Part shown: piece by piece, positions 6,080 to 32,228 of the stretch
Layout: each line of letters opens with the position of its first letter
Numbering within the stretch: the stretch's first letter is position 1
From: an uncultured Chlorobiaceae bacterium
Lineage (GTDB): Bacteria > Bacteroidota > Chlorobiia > Chlorobiales > Chlorobiaceae
Assembly: GCA_903871235.1 (NCBI GenBank)
Contig: CAIQGA010000006.1
Location: forward strand, 1-33,815
Direction of reading: 5' to 3'
DNA length: 33,815 nucleotides
Position numbers and translations under genes: made by a program
The notes under the pieces: generated by a model
Databases searched by the model: none
What the model was told of the DNA's origin: nothing
The model's input: only the letters and a program-made list of their open reading frames with translations

Positions 6080-6796
6080 TTATAACCTGAATCCAGCCGC
6101 TACGGCATCATTATAAAACATCTTTACCGTATCAAGGGAGTAGGCATCAAGATCATAATCGACCAAGGCTAATTTTTTAAGAATATCATTGGTAACGGTA
6201 ATCACATGACAACCAATTTCATTGGCATGAAAGATATTCAGCAATTCACGTGGGCTTGCCCAAATCAATTCAGCGGATGGAGCTTTTTTAAGCTCTTCGA
6301 CGGCTGCGGCCATCATCGGAACCGGATCACGGCCGGTATCGGCAATCCGGCCGGCAAATACCGAAACATAACTTGGAACATCTGGATCAAGAGAAGCGAC
6401 CACATCACGAACCTGAGTCAAAGTCATCAGTGCCGTCACATTCAATTTGACTTTCAGTGCAGCTAACTTTTTAACGAGATCATAACAGGTTTCCTGCCTG
6501 GTGTTGGTCACCGGAATCTTGACGTAAACATTTTCACCCCAACCGGCAATTTCCATTGCCTGTCGCTCCATTTCGGCAAAATCATCCGAAAAAACTTCAA
6601 ATGATAGCGGCTTATCCTTGATATGGGTAAGAATATCCTTGCAGAAAGCCCGGTAATCAGTAATGCCCACTTTTTTCATCAAGGTCGGGTTGGTTGTTAA
6701 TCCTTTGATGTAGGGTTTTTCGTACATCTCAAGCATGCCGTTTTTATCTGCGCCATCTGCAAAAATCTTAACCTTCAGGGTTTCAATGTTTGTCAT
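6080..6796 (-). CDS. Transaldolase / fructose-6-phosphate aldolase family protein
   Basis: A 238-residue class I aldolase of the small transaldolase (TalC/FSA-like) type. Visible features are GLTTNPTLM at 32-40, the Schiff-base lysine in YVKIPVT (K93), NVTALMTLTQV near 118, the VSVFAGRIADTGRD phosphate-site region, and WASPRELLNI. Transaldolases move a dihydroxyacetone unit between sugar phosphates and can yield sedoheptulose 7-phosphate. It is the last gene of the heptose operon and overlaps gmhB by 14 nt, so translation is probably coupled. Its position suggests it supplies sedoheptulose 7-phosphate to the GmhA-HddA-GmhB-HddC route. That role is inference: the enzyme could instead cleave or form another sugar phosphate that is a precursor of the glycan. 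Confidence 0.88.
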   Translation of the reverse strand: MTNIETLKVKIFADGADKNGMLEMYEKPYIKGLTTNPTLMKKVGITDYRAFCKDILTHIKDKPLSFEVFSDDFAEMERQAMEIAGWGENVYVKIPVTNTRQETCYDLVKKLAALKVKLNVTALMTLTQVRDVVASLDPDVPSYVSVFAGRIADTGRDPVPMMAAAVEELKKAPSAELIWASPRELLNIFHANEIGCHVITVTNDILKKLALVDYDLDAYSLDTVKMFYNDAVAAGFRL

Positions 6797-7325
6797 AGAG
6801 GATTTCTCCTAAAATAAGTGTTGAGGCATCTTTTAATGACTTTACGCTGAAAGTGAAGGATTCCGGCTGTTGTTCATCGTAGCCGTAATCAATAAAAATT
6901 GTTGTACAGCCAGCTCGCGTTCCTGCTTCGAGATCCCGCCATCGATCACCAACCATATAGCTCTCACCAAGATCAATACCATGCTGTTGTGCTGCTGCCA
7001 ACAGTGCTCCGGGCAGTGGCTTGCGGCAATCGCAACCATCAGCCCCATCATGGTAACAGGTTCGGAACTCATCAATAGGCAAACAATTTTCCAGATAATG
7101 GTTGATCTCCTCAACAACAGCCAACGGTGTTGTCCCACGGGCAACATCAGGCTGGTTTGTAACCACAATCAGCATGAACCCTGCATCATGCAGCGCAACC
7201 AATGCCTCAAAAACACCCGGCAAAATTTCAACCTCAGTGATATTAGCTGGCGGGTACGGCTTGCCGTTACGCACCATGGCGCGATTGATAACACCATCCC
7301 GATCGAGAAACACAGCCCGTCGCAT
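6783..7325 (-). CDS. gmhB: D-glycero-D-manno-heptose 1,7-bisphosphate 7-phosphatase
   Basis: A 180-residue HAD-superfamily phosphatase of the GmhB / histidinol-phosphatase type. The nucleophile motif is FLDRDGVIN (residues 6-14), motif II is VVTNQPDVARG, the zinc-binding loop is CYHDGADGCDC followed by RKP, and the last motif is MVGDRWRDLEAGTRAGC. The enzyme removes the 7-phosphate from heptose 1,7-bisphosphate in the cytoplasm. Its start codon directly follows the gmhA stop, and its end overlaps the transaldolase. The heptose kinase and guanylyltransferase beside it make the heptose role much more likely than histidine biosynthesis. Confidence 0.92.
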   Translation of the reverse strand: MRRAVFLDRDGVINRAMVRNGKPYPPANITEVEILPGVFEALVALHDAGFMLIVVTNQPDVARGTTPLAVVEEINHYLENCLPIDEFRTCYHDGADGCDCRKPLPGALLAAAQQHGIDLGESYMVGDRWRDLEAGTRAGCTTIFIDYGYDEQQPESFTFSVKSLKDASTLILGEILYDKH

Positions 7326-7925
7326 CTATTTAACCGCAGATTCCCACTTGGTCTCGTTTGACTTCAGCTTGGGATGTGAAACCAGCAGATGCCAGATCAA
7401 AGCCTGAAAGGCCTCTGAATGCGGGGTTATATTATCGGGATTCACTGTCGGCACGATGACGCAGACATCGGCAACCTGCGCTGTATAACCGCCATCACGC
7501 CCAACCACTCCAGTCACCTTTGCCCCAACAGTTTTTGCATATTTGAGGGCTTCTACCAGATTCGGGCTGATATTCTTTTCTTGATTACCGCCACCGACAG
7601 ACAAGATAAAAAGGGCATCTTTGGCAGAAAGCCTGCTCGTTTGCAGCCATCCCGCAAAAATCGTTGCCCAACCCTCATCATTGGTACGCGCAGTCAGTTC
7701 AGAAACATTATCTGTCGGTGCATAGGATTCAATCCCGACAATCTTGCGGAAATCGTTCACTGCATGAGAGCAATTACCCGCACTGCCGCCAACACCCAAA
7801 AAGAAAATCCGGCCACCTTCAGCTTTAATCGTCACCAAGAGATCAGCCATCTTTTCAATGGCAGTAACGTCCATGTTCCGGATAATTTCAAGAGCTTCGT
7901 TTAAATGCTGCTCGGCATAACTCAT
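7326..7925 (-). CDS. gmhA: Sedoheptulose 7-phosphate isomerase (SIS domain)
   Basis: A 199-residue single SIS-domain protein, the usual GmhA size. Sugar-phosphate-binding signatures are FFLGVGGSAGNCSHAVNDF at 41-59 and ILSVGGGNQEKNISPNL at 107-123, with a conserved-looking TNDEGW at 81-86 and a C-terminal helix with His (PHSEAFQALIWHL). The family converts sedoheptulose 7-phosphate to D-glycero-D-manno-heptose 7-phosphate, the first committed step. The second loop has GGGNQEKN where classic GmhA has an SGNS-like sequence, so this belongs to a divergent branch. The gene overlaps hddC by 4 nt (ATGA). Confidence 0.9.
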   Translation of the reverse strand: MSYAEQHLNEALEIIRNMDVTAIEKMADLLVTIKAEGGRIFFLGVGGSAGNCSHAVNDFRKIVGIESYAPTDNVSELTARTNDEGWATIFAGWLQTSRLSAKDALFILSVGGGNQEKNISPNLVEALKYAKTVGAKVTGVVGRDGGYTAQVADVCVIVPTVNPDNITPHSEAFQALIWHLLVSHPKLKSNETKWESAVK

Positions 7926-8626
7926 TCTTTTTCTCCCTTTTGAAAATATTTAACGGTCTCCTCCAAACCCTTGAGTGAACCAATCTCATAAAAACGCTTA
8001 AACACCTCATACCCTGCCAAATCGCCCTGAACTGACAGACTGTGGTAAATATCAGCCAGATCAAATGGCTCGTTAAATGGCACATCTTTCAGAGCTACCG
8101 CAGAAAATATTCCCAGACCGTAATCAATATACGCCATTTCAGGACTTGGTATCATTTTGTTATACTCTATCAAAGAGCTATTTCGAAATAACACGTTACT
8201 TTTATCCCACAGATCCTCGTTACGAAGCACAGTCATCAATGCAGGCTTGCCGCTATGACGAAAACCCTCTTCCACCTTTCTGAAATCAATCGGCAAATAG
8301 GAGTCCCCATAAAAAACAAAAAACTGCTCCCCCAATAATGGCAACGCCAGCCTTAATGCTCCCCCAGTTCCCATTACCTTGGGGCCATCCCATGAGTAGG
8401 TAACTTTCAACCCAAAAGAGGAGCCATCACCCACAAGTGCTTTCACTTGTTCACCAAGGTAGCCAATACACAGAATGACATCGGTAATGCCTTGGCGCTG
8501 AAGGTAGTCGAGCTGACGAACGATAAATGGTATGCCAGCTACTTCAACGAGCGACTTCGGAATTGTCTGAGTAATCGGATGTAACCGGGTTGCCAACCCT
8601 CCAGCAAGAATTGCTACCGGCAGCAT
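7922..8626 (-). CDS. hddC: D-glycero-alpha-D-manno-heptose 1-phosphate guanylyltransferase-type nucleotidyltransferase
   Basis: A 234-residue sugar-1-phosphate nucleotidyltransferase. The N-terminal signature AILAGGLATRLHPIT ... PKSLVEVAGIPF (residues 5-34) binds the nucleotide, and VFYGDSYLPID carries the metal-binding Asp. There is no left-handed beta-helix, so it is the short HddC/RmlA-like form. Next to hddA, gmhA and gmhB the expected product is GDP-D-glycero-alpha-D-manno-heptose. The nucleotide (GTP versus another NTP) is inferred from context and cannot be read from the motifs alone. It has a 1-nt overlap with hddA (TGATG) and an ATGA overlap with gmhA. Confidence 0.88.
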   Translation of the reverse strand: MLPVAILAGGLATRLHPITQTIPKSLVEVAGIPFIVRQLDYLQRQGITDVILCIGYLGEQVKALVGDGSSFGLKVTYSWDGPKVMGTGGALRLALPLLGEQFFVFYGDSYLPIDFRKVEEGFRHSGKPALMTVLRNEDLWDKSNVLFRNSSLIEYNKMIPSPEMAYIDYGLGIFSAVALKDVPFNEPFDLADIYHSLSVQGDLAGYEVFKRFYEIGSLKGLEETVKYFQKGEKE

Positions 8627-9609
8627 CAGGATGACATCACAACTTTGCTCCCTTCAAAATCGAAGCGGAAACGAACCTCTTCCAGACCGGCAACAGCCAT
8701 TGCTGAGCGCAATTTACCCCTGTCTTGGGCCATAAACATCAGAAAGCCTCCGCCGCCTGCTCCAACAAGCTTACCGCCAATAGCGCCATTGCTCATGCCC
8801 AACTCATACCATTCATCAATTTGAGGATTGCTCATACCTCCCGAGCGACGCTTTTTATGTTCCCAATGTTCATGCATCAACTCACCAAAAAGCGTGGTAT
8901 CTCCATTTTCCAGAGATGATTTGCTGCGGTAACCCAGGTCCTTGACATAGTGCAGGTTATTGAGCATATCCCCGTCGTTTTTCTGGGAACGTATCTGCTG
9001 GTCTTTCAAAATACCGCTCGCACTGCGCGAAAAACCTGTAAAAAACAGTAACAGATTGTCCTCAAGATCAAGCAAGGTGTCCATACTGATATCAAGGGGC
9101 ACGGCAGTCACCTTGTCATCCTTATGAAACGTAAAACAGGTAATTCCTCCAATGGCTGCTATGTACTGATCCTGTTTGCCAATAGGTTCCCCAAGGCGAT
9201 CAATTTCGATGTGACACGCCAATTCAGCTAACTCTTCCTGATGCAAATGGCGCTTGCGATGGGTATACAGTGCTTTCAACAAGGCGGTCGTAAAACTGCC
9301 GGAAGAACCAAGTCCAGTGCTAGCCGGGATGTCCGCAAGAGTGGTAATTTCAATCTGTGGAGTTCGCAGATTCTGCATGATGAGGGCTTCACGAATAATT
9401 CTGTGTTCGATTTCGCTAACTTTTTTGACGCTTTCAAGCGCGGAATATTTTAAAAAAATTCCCTCAACAAAAGGCCGATTAATGGTGACATAAACATATT
9501 TATCTATCGCTCCTGCAATCAGAAAGCCTTCAAATTGGCAGTAGTAAGAGGGCAAATCCGTACCACCGCCACCTAACGAAATACGCAATGGGCTGCGTGC
9601 AATAATCAT
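8626..9609 (-). CDS. hddA: D-glycero-alpha-D-manno-heptose 7-phosphate kinase (GHMP family)
   Basis: A 327-residue GHMP kinase when started at ATG 9609. A longer frame exists to 9726, but its extra 39 residues overlap the upstream gtrA-like gene. The chosen start has an AGAGG-type ribosome site just upstream and places the family N-terminus RSPLRISLGGGGTDLPSYY at residues 5-23. The ATP-binding motif PASTGLGSSG is at 95-104, and the C-terminal motif GKLVGAGGGGFLMF is near 280. HddA phosphorylates O-1 of D-glycero-D-manno-heptose 7-phosphate to the alpha-1,7-bisphosphate. L-fucose kinases share this fold, but the four-gene context favours heptose. Confidence 0.91.
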   Translation of the reverse strand: MIIARSPLRISLGGGGTDLPSYYCQFEGFLIAGAIDKYVYVTINRPFVEGIFLKYSALESVKKVSEIEHRIIREALIMQNLRTPQIEITTLADIPASTGLGSSGSFTTALLKALYTHRKRHLHQEELAELACHIEIDRLGEPIGKQDQYIAAIGGITCFTFHKDDKVTAVPLDISMDTLLDLEDNLLLFFTGFSRSASGILKDQQIRSQKNDGDMLNNLHYVKDLGYRSKSSLENGDTTLFGELMHEHWEHKKRRSGGMSNPQIDEWYELGMSNGAIGGKLVGAGGGGFLMFMAQDRGKLRSAMAVAGLEEVRFRFDFEGSKVVMSS

Positions 9610-9986
9610 TCGAAACCTCTTTTTTTGAAAACCCAGAAATTCATTAAAAAATATCCAGTAATCATGGTTGACAGAACACCCATAAATGCGCTGATATAAA
9701 AATTGATTCCATAAATTCCATAGCAAAATTTAATGGTAAATAATTGAATCACATAGTTTAATAAAGCAAGAAGAATGTAACGAAAAAGTTGTTGTCTAAA
9801 TTTTGATCCATAAGCATTAAAAGTGATTTTTTTATTTCCGAAAAAGTGAAAAATAATTGCTGCAGAATACGCGATTGCCACCGATAGAGGATATGGAATA
9901 GTTGCATAGTCAAAACATATCCATAAAATTGAGTAATAGATAATAAATGTTAAACCTCCGATGAGTAAAAATCGAAATATTTTCAC
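9606..9986 (-). CDS. GtrA-family membrane protein
   Basis: A 126-residue protein that is almost all membrane: four predicted helices starting at FLLIGGLTFIIYYSILWICF, with the typical GtrA elements FHFFGNKKITF between helices 2 and 3 and NFWVFKKR at the end. GtrA proteins are thought to flip polyprenyl-phosphate-linked monosaccharides across the inner membrane for side-chain modification of O-antigen or other glycans. It overlaps hddA by 4 nt (ATGA). The same operon encodes a membrane-anchored GT2 and a YfhO-like protein that could be its synthase and periplasmic transferase partners. Confidence 0.88.
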   Translation of the reverse strand: MKIFRFLLIGGLTFIIYYSILWICFDYATIPYPLSVAIAYSAAIIFHFFGNKKITFNAYGSKFRQQLFRYILLALLNYVIQLFTIKFCYGIYGINFYISAFMGVLSTMITGYFLMNFWVFKKRGFE

Positions 9987-10019
9987 GCAATAAAGTGTCG
10001 AAATGTTAGCTCTGTAAAA

Positions 10020-10811
10020 TCAAGTTGGGCAACGAGCAACAGCAAAAATTTGCCAGCCAAATCTCGAATGACCAGTGTTAAGTTTAAATAATAAATAGAA
10101 TACATTCATAAAAAAGCTAACTGCTAACCCTAAAGACAAACCTTTCGTATTGGTATCGATGTCCGAAATCAAACGCTTTCCTCTCAAAATTACTATCTTT
10201 CTGTAGATATTAAAAAAAGGAAATCCCAGAAGAGAGACCTTTTCTAAATTAAACCCTGATTTCTGAAGAAGCTCCGAGATGGAAGCCTTGTCGTAATGTT
10301 TACGGTGTCCGATATGCCGATCAAAATCAGACATAGGGCCACCGGGTACCGTAAGTAATAGATATGCGCCAGGTTTCAGATAGGATTTAAGCAGATGACA
10401 AAACATTTCTGGTTCATCGACATGTTCAATAACCTCTAGACATACAGCGACGTCCCCTTTGCCTATAAACCGGGAGACTTCCGCAGGCGGAGTAAATAAA
10501 TTAACCTGAATAAATTCGGCCTCCGGCACCTTGGCGCGAGAAATGCTTACTCCAGTGCTACTCATTTCGAATCCGACATATTTTTTTGCACAATGGTTTG
10601 CGGTAGCTTTAAACAAAAAGTCACCTTGGCCACTACCAATATCCAGAACTAACTCAGGTTTTTCCGTCAAGCTCATCAGTTTTTCAAGAATGATATCATG
10701 ACGCATTTTTTGCGCAGGATTTTCACTGGCAGCCGTTGCGTATGCCTGCCAGTGTTCAGACCAATTGTTTCTGTCATGTTCTGTCTGGATGTCTTTTTTT
10801 AATAATCTCAT
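10020..10811 (-). CDS. Class I SAM-dependent methyltransferase with hydrophobic C-terminal segment
   Basis: 263 residues. SAM motif I is LVLDIGSGQGDFLF (about 54-67), then YVGFEMS, and the post-motif VAVCLEVIEHVDEPEMF; GAYLLLTVPGGPMS matches the strand-5 region of UbiG/Methyltransf_11/23 enzymes. A hydrophobic stretch near 225-245 (LGLAVSFFMNVFYLLFKL) may associate with the membrane. It is fourth from the 3' side of the sugar/glycan part of the operon and overlaps the next methyltransferase by 4 nt. Probable role: methylation of a sugar, lipid-linked sugar or glycan end. The substrate cannot be told. Confidence 0.85.
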   Translation of the reverse strand: MRLLKKDIQTEHDRNNWSEHWQAYATAASENPAQKMRHDIILEKLMSLTEKPELVLDIGSGQGDFLFKATANHCAKKYVGFEMSSTGVSISRAKVPEAEFIQVNLFTPPAEVSRFIGKGDVAVCLEVIEHVDEPEMFCHLLKSYLKPGAYLLLTVPGGPMSDFDRHIGHRKHYDKASISELLQKSGFNLEKVSLLGFPFFNIYRKIVILRGKRLISDIDTNTKGLSLGLAVSFFMNVFYLLFKLNTGHSRFGWQIFAVARCPT

Positions 10812-11446
10812 AGCGCCCTGTTGCTGATAGATGCAAAAAGATTTAGATGAAATTTGTGATAATGCATTTTGATATTACTTGGCAGAAAGCCGCTTTTAAT
10901 AAGTATTGGCCAAAGATCACGCTTATCATAGTACATTTTATGGTCGTCCATCTCTTCCTTTGGACTGAGTTTAAGACTAAAAGCAGCATATTCCAGAAAA
11001 CTTTTTCCAAGCCAGGTTGGGACGTTAATCAATAATATCCCTTTTGGATTCAGTAGTGTCCGACATGACTGAAGTATATTGACCGGATTATGCAGATGTT
11101 CAAGCACTGAGATAAGCATGATCAAGTCAAATTTCTGTCCGTACAAGCGCTCTATGGCTTCTTCAGCCGGACATTCAAGGCAGAGAAATTTAGGGTGCAT
11201 TTTGACTTCCTCTGATAAGTTGAAATCTACGCCAACTAGTTTTATTGCGTGATTTTCAATCGCCAATAAATTCCGTGCTGAATAACCACACCCTATTTCA
11301 AGGACTATTAGGTTGTCTCGTTCAGCAATATCCTTGTAAATGGCTCTACATGAAAGCCAAGTACCAAAACGATCCGCTAAAGATAAGCGATGAGTTCCAA
11401 ATGAAGCCTGCCGGCGGCTGGCGTTTTTAAATCCTGATGCATTCAT
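10808..11446 (-). CDS. Class I SAM-dependent methyltransferase
   Basis: 212 residues. SAM motif I IVLEIGCGYSARNLLAI lies around 48-64, followed by LVGVDFNLS and the LIMLISVLEHLHNPVNIL segment typical of Methyltransf_11/23. GILLINVPTWLGKSFLEYAAF follows. It is coupled at both ends by ATGA overlaps to the GT2 upstream and to the second methyltransferase downstream, so the pair probably acts on the same glycan. The acceptor is unknown. Confidence 0.85.
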   Translation of the reverse strand: MNASGFKNASRRQASFGTHRLSLADRFGTWLSCRAIYKDIAERDNLIVLEIGCGYSARNLLAIENHAIKLVGVDFNLSEEVKMHPKFLCLECPAEEAIERLYGQKFDLIMLISVLEHLHNPVNILQSCRTLLNPKGILLINVPTWLGKSFLEYAAFSLKLSPKEEMDDHKMYYDKRDLWPILIKSGFLPSNIKMHYHKFHLNLFASISNRAL

Positions 11447-12663
11447 ATACTGGTCTGTCCAAGTCTTCGACCCAGTTCAAGTAATAAAGTAAATGAGAAC
11501 GTCTGCACGCCAAGAATCATCAAGAGTAAACCGAAAATGGTGGAGCGTGATAAACCACTGATAAAAAAGCCGTTGGCAATATAGTCTGTAAGGAAATGAA
11601 GATCCAGCACAAAGCCAACTATGCAGAGCAATACAGCGATGATCATGCCACGATCGTAAGTAAGGTTTAACAAAATAGATCGTTCAATACCATTTCGAAG
11701 ACCATGAACATTTCTTGCTATGATTCCAACCTGAAAGAGGGAGTAGCCGAGTACTGAAGCAGTCATTCCCGCCAATAACATGTGAGTGGAAAAGCCGATT
11801 GGCCCAATTGCAATCGAACCTGCCAAGGAAAGTAATGAAATAACAAGGCCTATCAAGAGAAAGGATATACCAGGCTTGATCAAAAACGAGTCTGGGCTGT
11901 ATACGAGCATGACCTTCAAGTTAATCCAGCCAGCCACCCATGGAGACCAAAAACCAGCACGCCTGTGATGACTGAATCTTCCTTCGCGATCTTTATAAAA
12001 AGTGACGGGGACTTCATCTATGTGTAAGTTAATTCGAGATGCTTTCAGTACCATCTCTGAAGCGTATTCCCAGCCTTTTGACGTTAAGTTGATTTTAAGC
12101 AGAGCATCTTTTGTTAGGCCACGCATACCACAATGAATGTCACTAAAATTGCTGTGGTAGATTTTGTTCAGAATCCATGTAGTAAAGGGTGTCCCAAAAT
12201 AACGATGGAGGGGTGGCATTGCTCCCTTTTCTATGGAGCCTGCAAAACGTGAACCCATTACAAATTCATTACCAGCAAGAAAACTATCGACAAACACTTT
12301 AATTTTCCTAAAATCATAAGTTAAGTCACAATCGCCCATAATAATAAAACGTCCTCGAATTGAAGGGATAACATCAATATAGGCTTGACCAAGCCCTTTC
12401 TTTGGCGTGCGGAGAACTCGTGCACCTTTATTTAGAGCAATATTTGGCGTATCATCAGAAGAGCTATCTACAATAATGATTTCGCCAGACACTCCAGCTC
12501 GCTTTAACCCTTCCCAGCACCAGTCAACAAATTCCCCGATGGTGATTTCTTCGTTCAGCGCAGGCACTACAATACTGACTTCCGGTAATTGATCAAAAGT
12601 CACTTCACCTTCAGGAATAAGTAACTCAATATGTTTTGGATCATTAAAAAATTTGTTTGTCAT
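11443..12663 (-). CDS. Membrane-anchored GT2 glycosyltransferase (polyprenyl-phosphate sugar synthase-like)
   Basis: 406 residues. The N-terminal GT-A domain (about 28-250) has VSIVVPALNEEITI, IIIVDSSSDDTPNIA, the metal site MGDCDLTYDF, and VMGSRF. The C-terminal part has about four membrane helices (starting around 265 with FLLIGLVISLLSLAGSIAI). This is the layout of synthases that charge polyprenyl phosphate with a sugar on the cytoplasmic face (GtrB/DPM-like with anchor). It overlaps the epimerase upstream and the methyltransferase downstream by 4 nt each. With the GtrA-like and YfhO-like proteins of the same operon it could form a three-part side-chain glycosylation system. Confidence 0.88.
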   Translation of the reverse strand: MTNKFFNDPKHIELLIPEGEVTFDQLPEVSIVVPALNEEITIGEFVDWCWEGLKRAGVSGEIIIVDSSSDDTPNIALNKGARVLRTPKKGLGQAYIDVIPSIRGRFIIMGDCDLTYDFRKIKVFVDSFLAGNEFVMGSRFAGSIEKGAMPPLHRYFGTPFTTWILNKIYHSNFSDIHCGMRGLTKDALLKINLTSKGWEYASEMVLKASRINLHIDEVPVTFYKDREGRFSHHRRAGFWSPWVAGWINLKVMLVYSPDSFLIKPGISFLLIGLVISLLSLAGSIAIGPIGFSTHMLLAGMTASVLGYSLFQVGIIARNVHGLRNGIERSILLNLTYDRGMIIAVLLCIVGFVLDLHFLTDYIANGFFISGLSRSTIFGLLLMILGVQTFSFTLLLELGRRLGQTSI

Positions 12664-13637
12664 TGTATGTTACCTTGAATTTCGTTACTCATTGCCGTAA
12701 TAGCGGCTTCAATTGCCTGAGCTGAAGTGCGTTGTGCACGCCAACCAGTGGCTTTGATTTTTGATACTTCGAATAAAACTTTTGGAACATCACCCTTCCA
12801 GCCACGATCACCACCTGTATACTGGTAGTCAACAGAGGCTGGCTCAAGACCGGCTACACGACAGGCAATATCCGCAATTTCAGTTACAGAGATATAGTCG
12901 TCAGTAGCAACATTGAATACGTCGAAACAAAGAGCTCGATTTACTCTAGATTGCCGTTCTACCAGCAGCATTGCATCAATGACATCATCAACATAAATAT
13001 AAGCTTTTGATTGGGTGCCATCCCCAAGGATACGAAGTTTGGTTGGTTCCTGCTTAAGCCTTCGGATAAAATCGTAGCCAACACCGTGGGTTTGCTTTGG
13101 GCCTACTACGTTAGCGAATCGAAATGCACGGCCGTGTATTGAAAACATATGGCAATAAGATGAAATAAGAGCCTCACAGGCCATCTTGCTTGCACCATAA
13201 GTTGAAATAGGGAAACAGGGGCCATAAGATTCATGGAATGCTATACCGGGAACCTCACCATAAATCCCACTACCAGATGTATAGAGGATCGCAGGCACTC
13301 CATTGATACGCATAGCCTCTAGAATATTTTGAGTCAGATATGTGCCTTCCCAAAAATCAATATCAGGCTGTTTTACAGCTTTGGCTATATCAGGATTTGC
13401 AGCAAAATGGATTACCAAATCGGCACCCGACATTGCATGTGTTAGCATACCAAGATGCTTAATATCCTCTTCAATAATTTTAAGCTTTAGATTTGATTTT
13501 ACTTCATGTAAGTGATTAAAGCTTCCCGAAGTAAAATTATCATATACTACGATTGACTCTACTAGTTCATCATGGATTAAACGCTGAACGATATGAGAAC
13601 CAATAAAGCCAGCTCCTCCTGAAATAAATACTTTCAT
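12660..13637 (-). CDS. NAD-dependent sugar-nucleotide epimerase/dehydratase
   Basis: 325 residues, extended SDR. It has the NAD-binding glycine motif FISGGAGFIGSH (4-15), LVIHFAANPD, the catalytic YTSGSGIYGE, and the YxxxK pair in YGASK (about residues 151-155). The C-terminal segment FNVATDDYISVTEIAD and GDRGWKGDVPKV is usual in UDP-glucose/UDP-GlcNAc 4-epimerase-like and GDP-heptose-like enzymes. It acts on nucleotide sugars in the cytoplasm. The exact reaction (4-epimerase, dehydratase or reductase) cannot be chosen from sequence alone. A GDP-heptose-modifying role is possible given the operon. Confidence 0.87.
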   Translation of the reverse strand: MKVFISGGAGFIGSHIVQRLIHDELVESIVVYDNFTSGSFNHLHEVKSNLKLKIIEEDIKHLGMLTHAMSGADLVIHFAANPDIAKAVKQPDIDFWEGTYLTQNILEAMRINGVPAILYTSGSGIYGEVPGIAFHESYGPCFPISTYGASKMACEALISSYCHMFSIHGRAFRFANVVGPKQTHGVGYDFIRRLKQEPTKLRILGDGTQSKAYIYVDDVIDAMLLVERQSRVNRALCFDVFNVATDDYISVTEIADIACRVAGLEPASVDYQYTGGDRGWKGDVPKVLFEVSKIKATGWRAQRTSAQAIEAAITAMSNEIQGNIQ

Positions 13638-13670
13638 AACTGATCTAATATTATGTTAAAATATCCTCTT

Positions 13671-16600
13671 TCATAACTGTCTGTTTAATTTAGCAGGAAT
13701 TTTAACAGAGTTTTGAATGAGCAGTAAGAACAATAACACGAACCCAAAGAAGCTAATCCATAATGCCTGATCAAGTTTCTCGGGTCTGTAGGTAAAACTG
13801 ACGTTATATTTCCCTGCTTTATCTATCCATAATCCCTTGAAGGCTTCATTCACGCGGATATATTCAACGTTCTTTCCATTAAGTAGTGCAATAAAGTCAC
13901 CAGGATAATAAGTTTCACCAAGTACAATGATACCTGGACCGTTCGCCTCCACAGAGAAACTTGTGATGTTGTTGGTTAATTTATACTCATTAGCTGGTAT
14001 AACGTGGTAAGTGGCATTATTGTTTAGCCTTCCTTGTGGTATAAACTGACGTTGAACCATGGCAAAAGGCTGATGTAATGTATCCGCCAATGCATCTAAA
14101 ATATCTGAAGGTTTATGCTCTTCTTTGATGGTATTGACGAAAAAAGCTCTCGGCCAGACAGTTTCTCTTTGCCAGACATCAAGATCGTTAGAGTCAACTA
14201 ATTTCATTTCTTGAGGCATATTAATTCCGGGCGTAGCGACTATATAGCCAATACCCAGCATATCCAATGATGCCGAACGACTGTTAATTTGATCGCTTTT
14301 AATTAAACGTAACCAGTTCCAACCCTGGTCAGGGTAGTCTACAAGCGTTAACAATTTCTCGTAATGTTCATTTCGTAATGGCTCAACAGATACAATGCCT
14401 TCAAGGCCGAATCCTGAGTTATATCCGGGAAACAATACAGATCCTTCGCCAATAACTCGTGTTGGGTTATTATTATTTTCAATTTTCTTTTTTACGAATT
14501 CGATTGCATTAGACTTGGCGGAGAAATTTCCTCGTAATGTCGGATTCATGACATACTCGTCTATCCCCTTTATTCCTGTTACTAAATGCATTCCGTGACG
14601 GATGTGTATAAAAAGAAAGCAAAAAACCAATAGTATGAAAGTATTGTTGTGTGCTTTGGCTGTTGGGTTGGCAATTCTATATAACAGCGCAAGTGCGATA
14701 AACGCTATAACTAATGTTATAATAATCAAGAAGTTAATTTTTCTCCATCCTTCAGTTTGTGATGAATAAACCAGCAGTAATACTATGGTACTTACACATG
14801 AAAAGATTAAAATGTTTTTTTTTGTCTTTTCAGAATTTATTAAGTAATCTCGAATTCCATACCCGACAATTATTAATGCAAGAATCATCATTGGCATTGA
14901 AAAAACATCGCCTATATGCTGTATTTTGTTTATAAAAGGAATAGAAATCAAGATAAATTTAGGGATAAATCCATAGGCAGTTGCCATGGCAATCATAAAT
15001 AATGTCCAGCTTCCATATACCATAGCGGATTGCCGGAATTGCAGATTATAAAAAGCACACAACATTCCAAAGAGAATAAACAAGTTTACTGTCGGAGCTG
15101 AAAGGCCGTCTTTTAATATTTGAAAAAAGAAGTTTTCAAAAAAACAGAGAATCATCCATGGATCAAATGTTGATGCGCCAGGATTGTCATAAACGGTATA
15201 TGATTTGCCCAATGCATCAAGAAAAAGCAACCAATGAGGTGCTGTAATCATGATAAGTGAAAATCCTAGTCCGCAGACAAAAAGAATAGATTTGATTTGC
15301 CCGAACTTTGGTGAGATATGTATAAAAAATGACAATGCACCCAACGCATGCATAAAACATGCGGTGATAACCCCCTCTTTTGGTGCTCCAGCGTTAAGTT
15401 GCAACCAGGTAATTAGAGCCAGAAAAATGCCTTGTAAGATACAACTCTTTTTTCGAAGATTTGTCAAAGCAAAAGTTTGTCCCAACCGATCCCATTGAAG
15501 AACAATCCATGGTGAGTAGGTTAGGACAAAAAAAGCCGGATGGTTAAATCGAAAAGCAAAAAACCCAAGAAAACAACTTGAAATAGTAATTAATAATGCG
15601 GATGCAAGTTTATCGGTCAGCCGAAAAACAAGCAGGCCGATTCCAACAGCAAAAATGGTTTTGGATAGAACAAATTTTATATCCCATCCGACTGCATTGC
15701 CATCCAACAGTACAGGAATCCAATGCAGCACATCCCCGATCATTGATTGGCCTTGGGCAAAAAGTGGTGTTCCACCACCAACAAATCGAGTCCAGAAAGG
15801 AAATTCAAAAAAATTAAATAATGATTTATGCTGAACTATGGTATTAGGGACTATACTCCATCCTGTTGCTCCAACATCTGAACGACGAAAATTTTCACTG
15901 ATAACATCGATTGGAAATTCCGGTATCCATGGTGAACCGCCATACAAACAAGCTATTCCCGCTGGAGATACAAAGCTCATACCAAAAAAAACAACAGGAT
16001 AACAACTTACAAGGGATGAAATAATTCCTGTCAGCAGTATCGATTTTTGGGGGTTGTTGATTGAATAATCAACTATATGTGAAATAATGAAATTTATTTC
16101 TTGACTGCAGTGCTTTGTTATTCCGGCAAAAAAAATAAAAATTATTCCAGCACCACATGCATATATCCATCCGCGTTGCAAAAGAAAATAGATGTAACTA
16201 TTGTTAAGCAGGAATGAAGAGTTTTCTATTACAGTTATTGGGTCATTGGCGTTTTCCGTTGTCTGTATTGTCAATATATCGTTTTTGATTTGCATTTCAA
16301 TAATATCGTTTTCGGCTTTAAAAGAGTCTAAAGGAAAATATTTAAGTTGTTTTCCAGTCGTGTTCTTAATGGCGGCTTTTTTAATGCTGATTACTGACGT
16401 AACATTTACTGGATCAAAGCGAATAGATTTTATTGCGGCTTTAGGTAAAATAAATGAGTAAGTACGATAACCTCCAGATTGAGCATTTAATAAATAAGAA
16501 TCTTCTTGGTTGTAACCATGGCCGATATCAAAAAATATTTGAGTAATCCCTGGTCTTGAAGTTGCCATCTCAAGACTTAAGTAACAGGATGTGCGCTCTG

Positions 16601-16721
16601 AATAATCTTTGTAACCTAATGCTCCTGCAATCAGAAGTGAAATCAGGGCGAATAAATATATGTTAAAACGAGTTAATTTAGTGCTTTTAGTTTTCAAAAT
16701 ATCAGCATGTAGTTGTTGCAT
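13671..16721 (-). CDS. Large polytopic membrane protein, YfhO/GT-C-like
   Basis: 1016 residues. One N-terminal helix (about 19-37) is followed by a soluble beta-rich domain (about 45-170), then many hydrophobic helices between about 180 and 700, a second soluble domain (about 715-985) containing RVIGEGSVLFPGYNSGFGLEG and EANGPGIIVLGETYYPGDFIALLNGK, and a last helix near 990-1008. GDFIALLNGK with the WPRAFFV segment is typical of the YfhO/DUF family of putative periplasmic GT-C transferases that use polyprenyl-phosphate sugars. It is the first gene of the heptose operon, 33 bp before the epimerase. A likely job is transfer of a lipid-phosphate-linked sugar to a surface glycan or protein. Function is inferred. 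Confidence 0.78.
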   Translation of the reverse strand: MQQLHADILKTKSTKLTRFNIYLFALISLLIAGALGYKDYSERTSCYLSLEMATSRPGITQIFFDIGHGYNQEDSYLLNAQSGGYRTYSFILPKAAIKSIRFDPVNVTSVISIKKAAIKNTTGKQLKYFPLDSFKAENDIIEMQIKNDILTIQTTENANDPITVIENSSFLLNNSYIYFLLQRGWIYACGAGIIFIFFAGITKHCSQEINFIISHIVDYSINNPQKSILLTGIISSLVSCYPVVFFGMSFVSPAGIACLYGGSPWIPEFPIDVISENFRRSDVGATGWSIVPNTIVQHKSLFNFFEFPFWTRFVGGGTPLFAQGQSMIGDVLHWIPVLLDGNAVGWDIKFVLSKTIFAVGIGLLVFRLTDKLASALLITISSCFLGFFAFRFNHPAFFVLTYSPWIVLQWDRLGQTFALTNLRKKSCILQGIFLALITWLQLNAGAPKEGVITACFMHALGALSFFIHISPKFGQIKSILFVCGLGFSLIMITAPHWLLFLDALGKSYTVYDNPGASTFDPWMILCFFENFFFQILKDGLSAPTVNLFILFGMLCAFYNLQFRQSAMVYGSWTLFMIAMATAYGFIPKFILISIPFINKIQHIGDVFSMPMMILALIIVGYGIRDYLINSEKTKKNILIFSCVSTIVLLLVYSSQTEGWRKINFLIIITLVIAFIALALLYRIANPTAKAHNNTFILLVFCFLFIHIRHGMHLVTGIKGIDEYVMNPTLRGNFSAKSNAIEFVKKKIENNNNPTRVIGEGSVLFPGYNSGFGLEGIVSVEPLRNEHYEKLLTLVDYPDQGWNWLRLIKSDQINSRSASLDMLGIGYIVATPGINMPQEMKLVDSNDLDVWQRETVWPRAFFVNTIKEEHKPSDILDALADTLHQPFAMVQRQFIPQGRLNNNATYHVIPANEYKLTNNITSFSVEANGPGIIVLGETYYPGDFIALLNGKNVEYIRVNEAFKGLWIDKAGKYNVSFTYRPEKLDQALWISFFGFVLLFLLLIQNSVKIPAKLNRQL

Positions 16722-25842: not shown

Positions 25843-26607
25843 CTATTTAAATAAGTTTGGATTGTCGAAATATATCGCAATTTTTTTAAAAAAGTCATGC
25901 TTTGTAAAATTTTTGTGTCTATAACTCCCGTGTTTATAGGTCGCCCGCAAAAATTTATTTTGCCGCATCCATGAATCAACTCTTTTTTCAAATAGCTCAC
26001 CGCCATATTTTGGATAGCGTTCAGATGCCTTGTCGTAATATTCGTATATCCGTTGTTTAAAATCTGTTGTTCTGATCAAGTACATTTGATCAGAAAAGCC
26101 GTATCCAAAATAAAAATCTTTGTCTTCGTATTCGGATTCATCTTTCGCATCTTGATAATCGTAATTCCACGCAAGATTAAATACCTTGACGTCAGGTTTT
26201 TTTTCCAGTACATCAATTCCGGCTTCAAGCCAATCGTTTGGCACATCAGGTGTTACGGTCGTATCACCTGAGAAATGGAGAATGTATTTCGTTTCACTTA
26301 AATATATTGAAACTAATTCAGCGATTGAGTAATAATATCCTTTGCTTAATTTCTCTTTGTTGAGATTGAAGTGGCATAATGCTCTGTCGGCATAGTCATT
26401 GACATTAATATATTTATCAATAATGCCAGTTTGAATCATCTCTTTGGCAGCGCTTTCAACCGCCGCAAAGTTATTGACATTGTTGATGTAGAGAAACTTG
26501 TTTGTAAAACGATAATGGCAGTTTTTAATTGTTTTTCGCATTCTGGATGTTTTTAAGAGCAACTCCCAGTCGTTTTCCCAGACTTTTGTTTCGAACGTAA
26601 CGGACAT
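25843..26607 (-). CDS. Putative glycosyltransferase-like protein, family not identified
   Basis: 254 residues from ATG 26607, giving a natural N-terminus MSVTFETKVWENDW. A TTG at 26703 would lengthen it by 32 residues but overlap the upstream gene by 46 nt. HFSGDTTVTPD looks like the DxD-type metal site of a GT-A fold, and KFLYINNVNNF and FNLAWNYDY are compatible with that fold. The late YRHKNFTKHDFFKK is basic. It is AT-rich, soluble by prediction and probably co-transcribed with the two genes upstream (26658 and 27453). I do not recognise the family with certainty; glycosyltransferase is the best guess from the metal site and neighbours. Confidence 0.6.
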   Translation of the reverse strand: MSVTFETKVWENDWELLLKTSRMRKTIKNCHYRFTNKFLYINNVNNFAAVESAAKEMIQTGIIDKYINVNDYADRALCHFNLNKEKLSKGYYYSIAELVSIYLSETKYILHFSGDTTVTPDVPNDWLEAGIDVLEKKPDVKVFNLAWNYDYQDAKDESEYEDKDFYFGYGFSDQMYLIRTTDFKQRIYEYYDKASERYPKYGGELFEKRVDSWMRQNKFLRATYKHGSYRHKNFTKHDFFKKIAIYFDNPNLFK

Positions 26608-26657
26608 AAAGTTATTCGTCAGATTATATTTATTTTGTAATTCTCTTACGATGTTAC

Positions 26658-27431
26658 TCAATCCCGCCTTGATTTTGGAGTATCCGCTATCAATGCAGTA
26701 CAAGACCTATCCATTTTTACCAGAAGGCGCTTTGTCCAGTTATGTACTTTATCCGTGAATGCGTAGTTGTTTTCTGATCCGGATGTTCCTGATACTCCGC
26801 AAACGATCGGTGCAACAGGGAGCATAAATTTCGCAAGGTTATTGGCAATAACGATATCCTTGAAAGAGTGTTCAAGCCAATACGTTTGTTTTTCTCTGAC
26901 ATGCAAGTGCGCCGACAAGAAGTTTTTTATATAATACTTTTTGTCAACAATATAAAAGGAGGTGTCAACAGATTTGAAGGTAATAAGCTTGTGGTTTTTT
27001 CCGTATGAAAAATCACAGTCACATAAAAAAGTTCCGTTCCAAAAATGCAGGCAATCAAAAAAATTATCAACCCAAAGCTTAGCTGTGCATTTGGTAAAGT
27101 ATTCCGTTTTCTGCAGAAAAACTGAGTTTTCAAGTGCGTATTGTATAATTTCCCCTTCTCCATATCCTTTGCCATACAATGCCACTGATTCGCTGTCGTT
27201 ATTAAAGTGGAGGCACTCAATATCGCTGGACGGAAAGTTTTTAGCTATGATTGAAGAAAAATCATAGTTTGCTCCATCACAAATAACGATTTTTAAGTTA
27301 TTTGAAATATTCAGCCATTTTTCTATTGATCGAACCGTCAGTGCTATGCGATTATTTGGATCCCGTATTTGTGTGGATGGGGCAGATACCATCACACAGG
27401 ATGTCAAAAGTAACGGCGGTAAAGTAGTCAT
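26658..27431 (-). CDS. Putative glycan biosynthesis protein, glycosyltransferase-like
   Basis: 257 residues. The N-terminus LLLTSCVMVSAPSTQIRDP and then RIALTVRSIEKWL has the look of a GT-A beta1-alpha1 unit. Further on are IVICDGANYDFSSII (a nucleotide-site-like VxDG), GKGYGEGEIIQYALENS, FTKCTAKLWVDNFF and WLEHSFKDIVIAN. No strict DxD is seen except CDCDFS near the middle. I do not know a named family with this set. It starts 21 bp after the GT10 gene and precedes a second unfamiliar gene, so all three probably act on one glycan. The C-terminal end (LIADTPKSRRD) overlaps the longest possible start of the next gene. Confidence 0.6.
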   Translation of the reverse strand: MTTLPPLLLTSCVMVSAPSTQIRDPNNRIALTVRSIEKWLNISNNLKIVICDGANYDFSSIIAKNFPSSDIECLHFNNDSESVALYGKGYGEGEIIQYALENSVFLQKTEYFTKCTAKLWVDNFFDCLHFWNGTFLCDCDFSYGKNHKLITFKSVDTSFYIVDKKYYIKNFLSAHLHVREKQTYWLEHSFKDIVIANNLAKFMLPVAPIVCGVSGTSGSENNYAFTDKVHNWTKRLLVKMDRSCTALIADTPKSRRD

Positions 27432-27452: not shown

Positions 27453-28403
27453 TTATAGTGCTTCAAGCAGGAGATTGCGCAAAAAGTCTTGAAATGGTTT
27501 AATTGACGGCTTTTTAAGCAGTAAAGGCTGTTCAGCATAGGATGCTAATTGTTGTTCGGAATGGAGCAGTTCATACAAGAGGTCCAAATTATGCCAGTCC
27601 AATAGTTCGAGATTGATAAAAGCCTTAGGGTTAAAATCAATGGAGACCTTTGGATCAGCCCATGTCAATGGCAAGGAGTTTCCGAGAAAGGCTTCAGGAA
27701 TTTTTTCTGTATAATAACCGGACTGTATTTTGTTTTCCGGACAGAGGTTAAATGCGTAGTCACTGAGGATAGTCTGTTTTTCAAATCCGCTTGTACTGTG
27801 GCTGAAAATATTTTTGTTAAAATATTTTCCGAATCCGTCGATAGCAATGACTTCATTGACTGCTCGATACATATTTTTTCTTTGTCCATTGAGGTGTGAT
27901 GCAAATATCACCGCTTTTCGAGGCTTGGATAAAAATGTACTCCCAAGTGGCTCCATCATCCTCTTTATACTGAATAGTTTTCCAAATCGTTTATTGTTAT
28001 TTCCAACCAGCCCTTCGTGTGACCAGTCAACCATTTCCATCCAGTACGGCAGCCTGTAATGTGTGCGTTTATGGTCTGTCAGGTCAAAAGATATCGAATA
28101 ATCGGTTTTGACACTATTGTGTCGTAAGTTTTCGCAGGTGTGAAAAAGTGTTAAAGGCTTATAATGTCTGCTATTAATATGTTTCTTAATAAAATTGTGA
28201 TAGTGATTGGGCAGCATAACAAATGCTCCCTTTTTTAAAACCCATTTTAGTGGGCTCATAGGTTTGCCTATGATCAAAAGGTCACATTTGTCAGGTTCAA
28301 CCCATACAATATCATAGCCTGACTTGGCTATCAGCAGTGGCACTATTGACTCTTCTTTATACGTGTAATATTGCCCTATAATTGACAGTTTTATTTGCTT
28401 CAT
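27453..28403 (-). CDS. GT10 family glycosyltransferase (alpha-1,3/4-fucosyltransferase type)
   Basis: 316 residues from ATG 28403, which sits in a TAATG overlap with the stop of the upstream chimeric ORF. A start at 28448 would run further into that ORF. The C-terminal half carries the GT10 donor-binding signature: FNLCPENKIQSGYYTEKIPE, then AFLGNSLPLTWADP and FNPKAFINL. GT10 enzymes mostly transfer L-fucose from GDP-fucose to GlcNAc or Glc in alpha-1,3/1,4 linkage; bacterial members decorate O-antigens. No GDP-fucose synthesis genes are in the window, while GDP-heptose genes are, so another GDP-sugar as donor is a fair possibility (inference). Confidence 0.88.
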   Translation of the reverse strand: MKQIKLSIIGQYYTYKEESIVPLLIAKSGYDIVWVEPDKCDLLIIGKPMSPLKWVLKKGAFVMLPNHYHNFIKKHINSRHYKPLTLFHTCENLRHNSVKTDYSISFDLTDHKRTHYRLPYWMEMVDWSHEGLVGNNNKRFGKLFSIKRMMEPLGSTFLSKPRKAVIFASHLNGQRKNMYRAVNEVIAIDGFGKYFNKNIFSHSTSGFEKQTILSDYAFNLCPENKIQSGYYTEKIPEAFLGNSLPLTWADPKVSIDFNPKAFINLELLDWHNLDLLYELLHSEQQLASYAEQPLLLKKPSIKPFQDFLRNLLLEAL

Positions 28404-28939
28404 TAAGAGAGATGTTTGATGCTGAATCTGTCCACCAGTGCCAACCACTCTCCTGTTTCAGTCTGATGCTGCCACTCGTCGAAAAAATGGTTTGCCTGGT
28501 AGAGTTGTATCCTGCTGGAACCACAGCATTCCGGGATCGTGTAGAGGTGGTCTTCATGGGTGAAGAGATAAGGGGCGTAGAGGCTAAAGGCAAAAACAAA
28601 CAGTTCAACTTTTTTATGGGTGCTTCGAACAATCGCTGAAATTTCAATCAGTGCCCAGTTTTTCAACTTTTCTGCACTGGTGGTCGTGTTTGAGAGTTGA
28701 AGCGGTTGTTGCTGGGGAGTGGATGATTTTGTGGCGATGCTTTGCAGACCGTTTCGGTTGCTCCCTTGTCCCTGTTGAGCAGTGCTTTGCTGTGCTGCAG
28801 GTATAGTTGAAAAAACAGTATGCAGCAGCGGAAGGATGGAGTAGAGCGATACAATGCTGAACAACGAAGTCAATACGCTGACAATAACCACCAAAATAAT
28901 ATTGCCCTTTGACGGGGCCATGTACCGCAGCATTCTCAT
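28403..28939 (-). CDS. Chimeric ORF: ABC exporter N-terminus joined to an unidentified tail
   Basis: 178 residues from ATG 28939. Residues 1-120 parallel the intact exporter at 29367: MRMLRYMAPSKGNIILVVIV against LRLVRYLLPSKGKVVLVVVV, then SLYSILPLLHTVF against SIYSVLPLLNAVF, a diverged Gln/Ser-rich periplasmic loop, and AEKLKNWALIEI against TEKLKASLTGQF. Homology stops near 28580. The last about 58 residues (YAPYLFTHEDHLYTIPECCG ... ALVDRFSIKHLS) have no counterpart in the exporter and are of unknown origin. No nucleotide-binding domain is present. The stop overlaps the GT10 start (TAATG), so the tail probably belonged to a gene coupled to GT10. It is probably non-functional as a transporter. 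The start region itself may be shifted relative to the ancestor. Confidence 0.55.
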   Translation of the reverse strand: MRMLRYMAPSKGNIILVVIVSVLTSLFSIVSLYSILPLLHTVFSTIPAAQQSTAQQGQGSNRNGLQSIATKSSTPQQQPLQLSNTTTSAEKLKNWALIEISAIVRSTHKKVELFVFAFSLYAPYLFTHEDHLYTIPECCGSSRIQLYQANHFFDEWQHQTETGEWLALVDRFSIKHLS

Positions 28940-29250
28940 AAAATTGCAAACTTCATAGCCTGAATTATACATCAAAAACAATAAAAAAAGGGAGAAAAAA
29001 CATCGCAATTGCTTATATTGTTGGTACTTAATCCAATGGCTAAGCCGCAATATTTATGTAACCTCTTCAGGCGAATATAGTCACATCAGAGAGTACGCCA
29101 CAAACATTATTTTTATACAATTCTGCATCAGTCATAGCTCCGCTAACAGGCAAAAAAGCGGCGTCGGATTTTGATTTTTGTAGCTATCATGAATTCTTCA
29201 CGTTAATCCAACTCCACTGCATCGAGGTTTAATGATTGATCACAGCATAC

Positions 29251-29279: not shown

Positions 29280-29366
29280 TAACTCTTTTCACCCGTTTTT
29301 TGTAAAGAAGAGGGTGAATCGGTAGATTGAGGGCTGAATGATTGTTTGAGAACAGATAACGTTAGT

Positions 29367-31509: not shown

Positions 31510-32097
31510 TTATTCGAATAAACTGTTTTTGAAGTAGGCAATTGTTTTTGTCAATCCCTCTTCGAGAGTAATTGTTGGAGACCAGTTGAGTTCTTTTTTT
31601 GCCAATGTTATGTCCGGTTGACGTTGTTTTGGATCATCAGAGGGTAGTGGACAGAAAACGATTGTCGATTTGCTCCCGGTAAGGGCAATCACCTGCTCAG
31701 CAAGTTCGAGCATGGAGAATTCGCCTGGGTTTCCGATGTTGACAGGGCCTGTGAAGCCTTTGGGTGTTTCCATCATGCTGAGCATGGCGGCAATAAGATC
31801 ATCAACATAGCAGAAACTGCGTGTTTGATTTCCGTTGCCATAAATGGTTATATTTTCACCTTTCAGAGCCTGAACAATAAAGTTGCTGACAACTCTGCCG
31901 TCATGTGGCTGCATTCTGGGACCATACGTATTGAATATCCGGACAACTTTTATATCGACGTTGTGCTGGCGGTAATAATCAAAAAAGAGCGTTTCCGCGC
32001 ATCGTTTTCCTTCGTCATAGCAACTGCGGATTCCGATGGGATTGACCTTGCCCCAATACTCCTCTGTTTGAGGATGAACTTCAGGGTCACCATACAC
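31510..32097 (-). pseudogene. UDP-glucuronate decarboxylase / SDR family, 5' part removed by IS insertion
   Basis: About 195 residues of the C-terminal part of an extended SDR. It has [16 protein letters not shown], the YxxxK pair in [29 protein letters not shown], and [13 protein letters not shown], which are diagnostic of UDP-xylose synthase-type enzymes that turn UDP-glucuronate into UDP-xylose. Family members usually have about 310-340 residues; the NAD-binding glycine motif is missing. Homology stops at the V of VYGDP, exactly where the insertion sequence begins (32098). The open frame runs on to 32142, but those first residues are IS sequence. The missing N-terminal half should lie beyond the right end of the window. 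Confidence 0.9.
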
Positions 32098-32110
32098 CCT
32101 AATTTCCCGA
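32098..32110 (+). repeat. Left terminal inverted repeat of the IS
   Basis: CCTAATTTCCCGA matches the right end perfectly in inverse orientation. Partial similarity continues for about another 10 bp. Confidence 0.9.
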
Positions 32111-32190
32111 GCGATATATAACCATGAGAAGCATATCCTCATAAAATAGTTGGGTTTATCACAAAATAACTCTTGGTTTTGTCGTTTTTA

Positions 32191-32210
32191 ATAGTTATAA
32201 TTGTAACTAT
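32191..32210. repeat. 7-bp stem inverted repeat in front of the transposase gene
   Basis: ATAGTTA and TAACTAT flank a six-base loop, 18 bp before the transposase start. Within an IS leader such a hairpin may limit translation from outside transcripts, or act as an operator; neither is shown. Confidence 0.5.
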
Positions 32211-32228
32211 GAATTAAAAGCGAAAATC

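Follow-up and report, generated by a model that had tools for sequence, protein, structure and literature searches.

The window analysed here, a stretch of 33,815 nt, is one contig of a 3.3 Mb metagenome-assembled genome (MAG) from the family Chlorobiaceae. Eleven genes on its minus strand (16721–6080) form one operon (Table 1), in the order YfhO-like protein, SDR enzyme, GT2, two methyltransferases, GtrA, the HddA-, HddC-, GmhA- and GmhB-like enzymes and transaldolase. Consecutive frames from SDR through transaldolase overlap by 1–14 bases or abut, with the only exception of a 33-base gap before gtrA; another gap of 33 bases precedes the SDR gene. The start of the hddA-like gene at 9609, an ATG common to its relatives, overlaps the stop of gtrA by 4 bases; a longer HddA frame, from a TTG at 9726, was examined and rejected as the gene. 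The original prediction had singled out three components in this operon, a GT2, a GtrA-family protein and the large membrane protein, and all three are indeed open frames on the minus strand at the positions given for them; the operon reaches further down, to 6080, and includes the GmhB-like and transaldolase genes. The GC content is 43–48% in the sugar genes and 29–41% in the upstream part, a contrast that would be expected if the two halves of the operon differ in history.

Table 1. Genes of the eleven-gene operon, in the order of transcription, and the basis for their annotation.
Product	Position	Strand	Basis
1016-aa YfhO-like polytopic membrane protein, proposed periplasmic GT-C glycosyltransferase	13671..16721	-	YfhO profile-profile, orthologs
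SDR-family NAD sugar epimerase/dehydratase	12660..13637	-	PF01370 2.8e-40
TM-anchored GT2, proposed polyprenyl-phosphate sugar synthase (DPM/AglJ-like)	11443..12663	-	PF00535, AglJ model, PDB 5mlz
Class I SAM methyltransferase	10808..11446	-	PF13489 2.8e-12
Class I SAM methyltransferase	10020..10811	-	PF13489 4.9e-17
GtrA-family small membrane protein, proposed flippase	9606..9986	-	PF04138 1.4e-20
HddA-like GHMP sugar-phosphate kinase	8626..9609	-	PF00288/PF08544, HddA model, PDB 3k85
HddC/MurU-like sugar-1-phosphate nucleotidylyltransferase	7922..8626	-	PF00483, MurU and HddC models
Divergent GmhA-like SIS isomerase	7326..7925	-	PF13580, TIGR00441 below cut-off
GmhB-like HAD phosphatase	6783..7325	-	TIGR01656 over cut-off
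Dedicated transaldolase	6080..6796	-	TIGR02134 322 bits, over cut-off

The first gene codes for a protein of 1016 residues with an N-terminal beta domain (residues ~45–170), around 13 transmembrane (TM) segments and a C-terminal soluble domain. The protein showed no sequence match in Pfam, NCBIfam or the PDB, a profile of its family retrieved no relative from the PDB, and a scan of viral contigs did not find any relative either. The Pfam model for YfhO, PF09586, did not match it even at E 10, and we thus designate the protein as YfhO-like and not as a member of YfhO. Nevertheless, an hhalign comparison of its family profile (5 sequences) with a profile of 20 Chlorobial YfhO-like proteins, including L060, which is over the Pfam YfhO cut-off, and L061 and L078, which are under it, aligned residues ~234–1000 with a probability of 99.4% (E 3e-21), and the reversed and block-shuffled controls stayed below 1%. 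Most of this signal corresponds to the C-terminal domain, which alone gives 99.1%; the TM core, taken by itself, reaches 40.5% (E 3e-4; 0.5% when reversed). The YfhO-like nature of the protein, already suspected in the original prediction, is therefore well supported by profile comparison. The first outer loop of the YfhO-like family does not contain a literal DxD motif, and shows conserved D272, D282 and E306 instead. AlphaFold models, built with five sequences only, had a pLDDT of 38.8 for the full protein and of 33.4 for residues 222–735, values too low to support any claim about the membrane part; the label GT-C derives from the literature, which treats YfhO as GT-C (PMC8035078), and not from structure, and by this analogy we propose that the protein acts as a GT-C glycosyltransferase. 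For the N-terminal beta domain the model reached pLDDT ~65–84, and the best structural matches of model residues 43–168 were CBM60 chains with weak Z scores (8.8 and 8.6), barely over the usual background, so that a carbohydrate-binding role for this domain is suggestive only.

The GT2 (PF00535, 9.4e-16) has lipid-phosphate sugar synthases as its nearest curated models, AglJ (5.2e-36), haloarchaeal dolichyl-phosphate hexose transferase and PpgS, although all these matches are below the membership cut-offs. It also matches the archaeal DPM synthase 5mlz (7.3e-7) and contains three hydrophobic segments C-terminal to the GT domain. By sequence, it is a putative membrane-anchored polyprenyl-phosphate sugar synthase, as initially proposed. 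The GtrA assignment was equally borne out, because the 9606–9986 product is a clear member of its Pfam family, over the cut-off, and a candidate flippase; the genome holds two GtrA genes, including that of the block.

The operon contains a SIS isomerase, a GHMP kinase, a HAD phosphatase and a nucleotidylyltransferase, the same set of four enzyme types as the GDP-heptose pathway (PMC10680097), plus a transaldolase. All four enzymes scored below the corresponding NCBIfam equivalog cut-offs (53/209, 164/600, 114/178 and 75/300 bits). The kinase matched the HddA model (5e-48, below its cut-off) and PDB 3k85 (1.8e-47), and the nucleotidylyltransferase was closer to MurU (1.9e-30) than to HddC (5.6e-21), both below cut-off. 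The phosphatase matched PRK08942 (3.8e-33, below cut-off) and GmhB from the PDB (6e-19), and was over the cut-off for TIGR01656. The isomerase reached 53 bits with TIGR00441 (cut-off 209), and its closest PDB chains are phosphoheptose isomerases. Compared with E. coli GmhA, it keeps His61, has Asp in place of Glu65 and aligns to His180 only across a 2-residue shift. Given these altered residues and the presence of a canonical GmhA elsewhere in the genome, a sugar other than D-glycero-D-manno-heptose is conceivable. The transaldolase (cut-off 282 bits) could be the source of sedoheptulose 7-phosphate. Of the heptose pathway originally attributed to the operon, the functional link to heptose-type genes stood, whereas heptose itself, with a divergent isomerase and the equivalog cut-offs missed, is our best guess and a likely one, another higher sugar being possible.

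The methyltransferase genes are present in every Chlorobial locus, and in loci L003–L005 methyltransferase and GT2 are one polypeptide; the methyltransferase domain of the L004 fusion is ~30% identical to methyltransferase 10808. The conservation of two methyltransferases and the fusion with the GT2 make methylation by enzymes of the block plausible, the sugar being one possible target. The transfer of a methylated heptose, also anticipated for this operon, is plausible for the methylation and likely for the heptose. We found no paper on polyprenyl- or undecaprenyl-phosphate heptose in the open-access literature, and nothing useful on heptose in Chlorobium lipopolysaccharide in the literature searched.

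The large protein has few full-length relatives: they appeared in four of 98 genomes of the order, in one Methylococcales MAG and, through its HddA, in locus L087. HddA orthologs with at least 86% identity were found in six of the 98 genomes, the window genome included, and the four genomes with the large protein are all among these six. L087 belongs to a gammaproteobacterium from the same order as the Methylococcales MAG and contains all 11 genes with unchanged order and orientation, at 61–83% identity (large protein, 61%; SDR, at the matching position, 81%; GT2, 83%; methyltransferases, 76 and 69%; GtrA, 69%; HddA, 77%; HddC, 65%; GmhA, 80%; GmhB, 63%; transaldolase, 74%). The large protein of L087 lacks the N-terminal beta domain, its start corresponding to residue ~190. 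Reading of the translations, rather than a family search, places rpoD- and mltB-like genes at one end of the block there and panB, folK, pcnB and kdp genes at the other. By the same reading, no glycosyltransferase was seen in the ~51 kb stretch other than the GT2 and the YfhO-like protein, and the block therefore looks self-contained. In genome G437, a close relative of L087, the first gene of the block is also situated after mltB (88.6% identical) and the sugar genes precede panB, with genes for SDR and Gfo/Idh enzymes upstream of hddA replacing gtrA, and a contig break between. The first gene occupies the equivalent site in L095, and neither panB nor the block was found within 1.5 kb beyond mltB in L096–L099; this comparison, a search for an empty site, gave no evidence of an insertion there. 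Two related genomes (L087, 8585–19103, and L108, 1–5630) retain the block's first gene and its sugar genes next to mltB and panB and diverge in what immediately precedes hddA, resembling a surface-antigen switch.

We considered as informative those loci with an HddA of at least 75% identity, which are the window, L003, L004, L005, L054 and L055, all from Chlorobiaceae, and L006, L085, L086, L087 and L106, covering two phyla overall. The sugar genes lie beside a GT2 of the polyprenyl-phosphate-sugar-synthase type and a large multi-TM protein in all eleven loci, and a flippase candidate is present in ten (nine GtrA and, in L006, one PF03706); in L003, neither the surroundings nor the rest of the 80%-complete genome yielded a GtrA. 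The transaldolase gene closes the sugar genes in ten loci, the L106 stretch stopping before that point, and L085 does not have the GmhB-like gene. Orthologs of the large protein head the block in six of the eleven loci, occurring outside the window in L003–L006 and L087. The components are of different types. The window and L087 (type A) are partially matched by L106, which has a type A GT2 (68%) and SDR (69%, also at the matching position) but a different GtrA (35%) and multi-TM protein. Type B (L003–L006) combines a YfhO-like protein with the methyltransferase-GT2 fusion (L003–L005) or with separate genes (L006), and type C (L054, L055, L085, L086) contains GtrB-like GT2s that are 83–88% alike, GtrA and other large TM proteins. 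The GtrAs of the Chlorobiaceae loci show 31–36% identity between types. Since GT2 types and GtrAs vary by locus, the association with the sugar genes probably formed more than once; the eleven loci do not equal eleven independent events, and represent at least two, and probably at least three, separate associations. The maintenance of the whole 11-gene block across phyla and the recurrence of the sugar genes with GT2, flippase and large-TM partners that are not orthologous give good support, from comparative sequence data, to a functional link of the three-component architecture with heptose-type sugar genes, as foreseen in the original prediction. In L006 (17917–22047), L004 (15149–19298) and L054 (9902–14054), hddA is preceded by genes for a UGDH-like dehydrogenase, a Gfo/Idh oxidoreductase and a short SDR, so that the type B and C loci may make the same sugar in an oxidised or otherwise more modified form.

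Three ordinary HddA loci from the same genus (L056–L058; 38–40% HddA) contained no GtrA in a tblastn search with the window GtrA, a search that detects GtrAs at 32–33% identity in other loci. One of them, L058, is held by genome G082, whose sole GtrA sits in the block, and among four other Chlorobium-group genomes sampled, three have no GtrA and one has a single one. We had predicted in advance that new HddA orthologs of at least 70% would be preceded by the three parts, and this was so for L106, the only one found; in L107 (64% HddA) there are only hddA–hddC and none of the three components.

The gene content, the operon layout, the families to which GT2, GtrA, the methyltransferases and the SDR enzyme belong and the linkage conserved in two phyla are established; every reaction, the sugar identity and the acceptor in the following model are inferred. 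It is rather probable, in our opinion, that the block encodes a self-contained system for glycosylation outside the cytoplasm that supplies its own donor sugar, passed from the GT2 through GtrA to the YfhO-like protein. The transaldolase, isomerase, kinase, phosphatase and nucleotidylyltransferase would produce an NDP-sugar, most likely GDP-heptose; the SDR enzyme would alter its stereochemistry and one or both methyltransferases would methylate it. The GT2 would then move the sugar onto undecaprenyl phosphate, GtrA would expose the lipid-linked sugar to the periplasm, and the YfhO-like protein, as a GT-C and perhaps with a carbohydrate-binding N-terminal domain, would pass it to a periplasmic acceptor. 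The O-antigen side chain, named in the original prediction, did not gain support, because the acceptor cannot be read from sequence. A bolder version, in which a horizontally mobile, self-contained cassette makes, epimerises and methylates a heptose, or another higher sugar derived from the transaldolase, that is carried on undecaprenyl phosphate and attached outside the cytoplasmic membrane, being the first polyprenyl-phosphate-heptose donor system, with synthase, flippase and transferase as exchangeable parts, is possible, although we advance it tentatively.

A difficulty for a system with its own sugar is that different GT2 families would each need to accept one unusual sugar; the altered isomerase beside a canonical GmhA, the missing literal DxD, the lack of GtrA in L003 and the bare hddA–hddC pair of L107 also speak against the model. 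Alternatively, the three components could move an ordinary hexose made elsewhere, with the NDP-sugar of the operon entering a polysaccharide backbone via cytoplasmic glycosyltransferases encoded at other places of the cluster or genome. The variation of GT2 types by locus is what would be seen if side-chain systems were swapped around a constant sugar, the window contains several further glycosyltransferases, and Glc, Gal or GlcNAc is what the characterised systems of GtrB/CsbB type transfer (PMC8035078). Yet there is no other recognisable glycosyltransferase in the ~51 kb at L087, the ordinary heptose clusters of the genus are devoid of GtrA, and methyltransferases and epimerase directly accompany the GT2, so we consider this explanation unlikely, though not negligible.

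The system could also operate as proposed with a sugar other than heptose, the transaldolase and the divergent isomerase making, for instance, an eight-carbon sugar on a pentose phosphate. Transaldolases also accept other aldose phosphates, and the scores of the four sugar enzymes below equivalog cut-offs, the proximity of the HddC-like enzyme to MurU, the altered active-site positions of the SIS isomerase, the canonical GmhA elsewhere and the constant inclusion of a transaldolase all point in this direction. Against it, heptose enzymes are among the nearest solved structures for kinase, phosphatase and isomerase alike, and the four enzyme types are those of the GDP-heptose pathway (PMC10680097); we regard it as having a small probability. 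Much more improbable is that the 1016-aa protein is not a glycosyltransferase, with GT2 and GtrA feeding an unlinked GT-C and the YfhO-like protein having another role in the envelope. The AlphaFold models were too poor to show a GT-C fold, the YfhO signal resides mostly in the C-terminal domain and YfhO-like proteins are widespread in the order without the sugar genes; however, in over half of the informative loci the block begins with an ortholog of the protein, which is also retained in the isolated L087 island, and in the known CsbB/GtcA/YfhO systems of Listeria, Bacillus and Staphylococcus the GT-C partner is a YfhO protein (PMC8035078).

The proposed self-contained system has in common with those CsbB/GtcA/YfhO systems a GT2 lipid-phosphate sugar synthase, a GtrA-family protein and a YfhO-type third component; these, however, add GlcNAc to teichoic acids and have no sugar-synthesis, epimerase or methyltransferase genes listed as members (PMC8035078), whereas the block carries its own sugar pathway and the YfhO-like protein of the window is only remotely related and has a beta domain added at its N-terminus. 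The GtrA/GtrB/GtrC systems for O-antigen glucosylation in Salmonella and Shigella follow the same three-part logic, but with a glucose donor and no dedicated donor pathway (PMC11127046); GtrB-like enzymes occur in the sister type C loci, while the window GT2 is DPM/AglJ-like and has more membrane segments. The three-component systems for pentofuranose (GT136; Kelly et al. 2024, PMC11127046) also have an accessory epimerase next to their three components, and their GT-C enzyme bears a carbohydrate-binding domain, to which the N-terminal domain of the YfhO-like protein may correspond; they differ in the phosphoribosyl-type synthase using PRPP, the MATE flippase and the pentofuranose sugar. The GDP-heptose pathway of the Campylobacter capsule shares the isomerase, kinase, phosphatase and guanylyltransferase logic and epimerase-type modifying enzymes (PMC10680097); no lipid-phosphate donor is described for it, and the enzymes of the block are divergent and include a transaldolase. 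The types of parts are thus known, and their pairing with a heptose-type sugar is absent from the literature searched, so the block is probably a new form of three-component glycosylation system.

The three-component systems known so far move hexoses or pentofuranoses, and a higher-sugar cassette, if real, would enlarge the set of donors used in extracytoplasmic glycosylation. Divergent HddA/SIS genes accompanied by a transaldolase would in that case be a genomic marker for finding more systems, and the block would likely be a further case of an epimerase within a three-component system; Kelly et al. (2024) knew no other case of an O-antigen side-chain epimerase than theirs (PMC11127046). The isolated 11-gene version from L087 makes the idea directly testable as one block.

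Other features of the window lie outside the operon. A second DPM-like GT2 (674–1531), 24% identical to that of the operon, adjoins a ferredoxin gene (275–658). At 25843–27431 there are two adjacent frames (286 and 257 aa) with a 46-base overlap and no Pfam match. Part of the 28403–29050 frame is similar to the beginning of the MsbA-like ABC transporter next to it (29346–31262), like a truncated copy joined to another frame. Finally, in 31510–33797, a 210-aa frame matches only the C-terminal half of an epimerase/dehydratase and adjoins a DDE transposase (32229–33797), and the epimerase gene therefore looks broken there.
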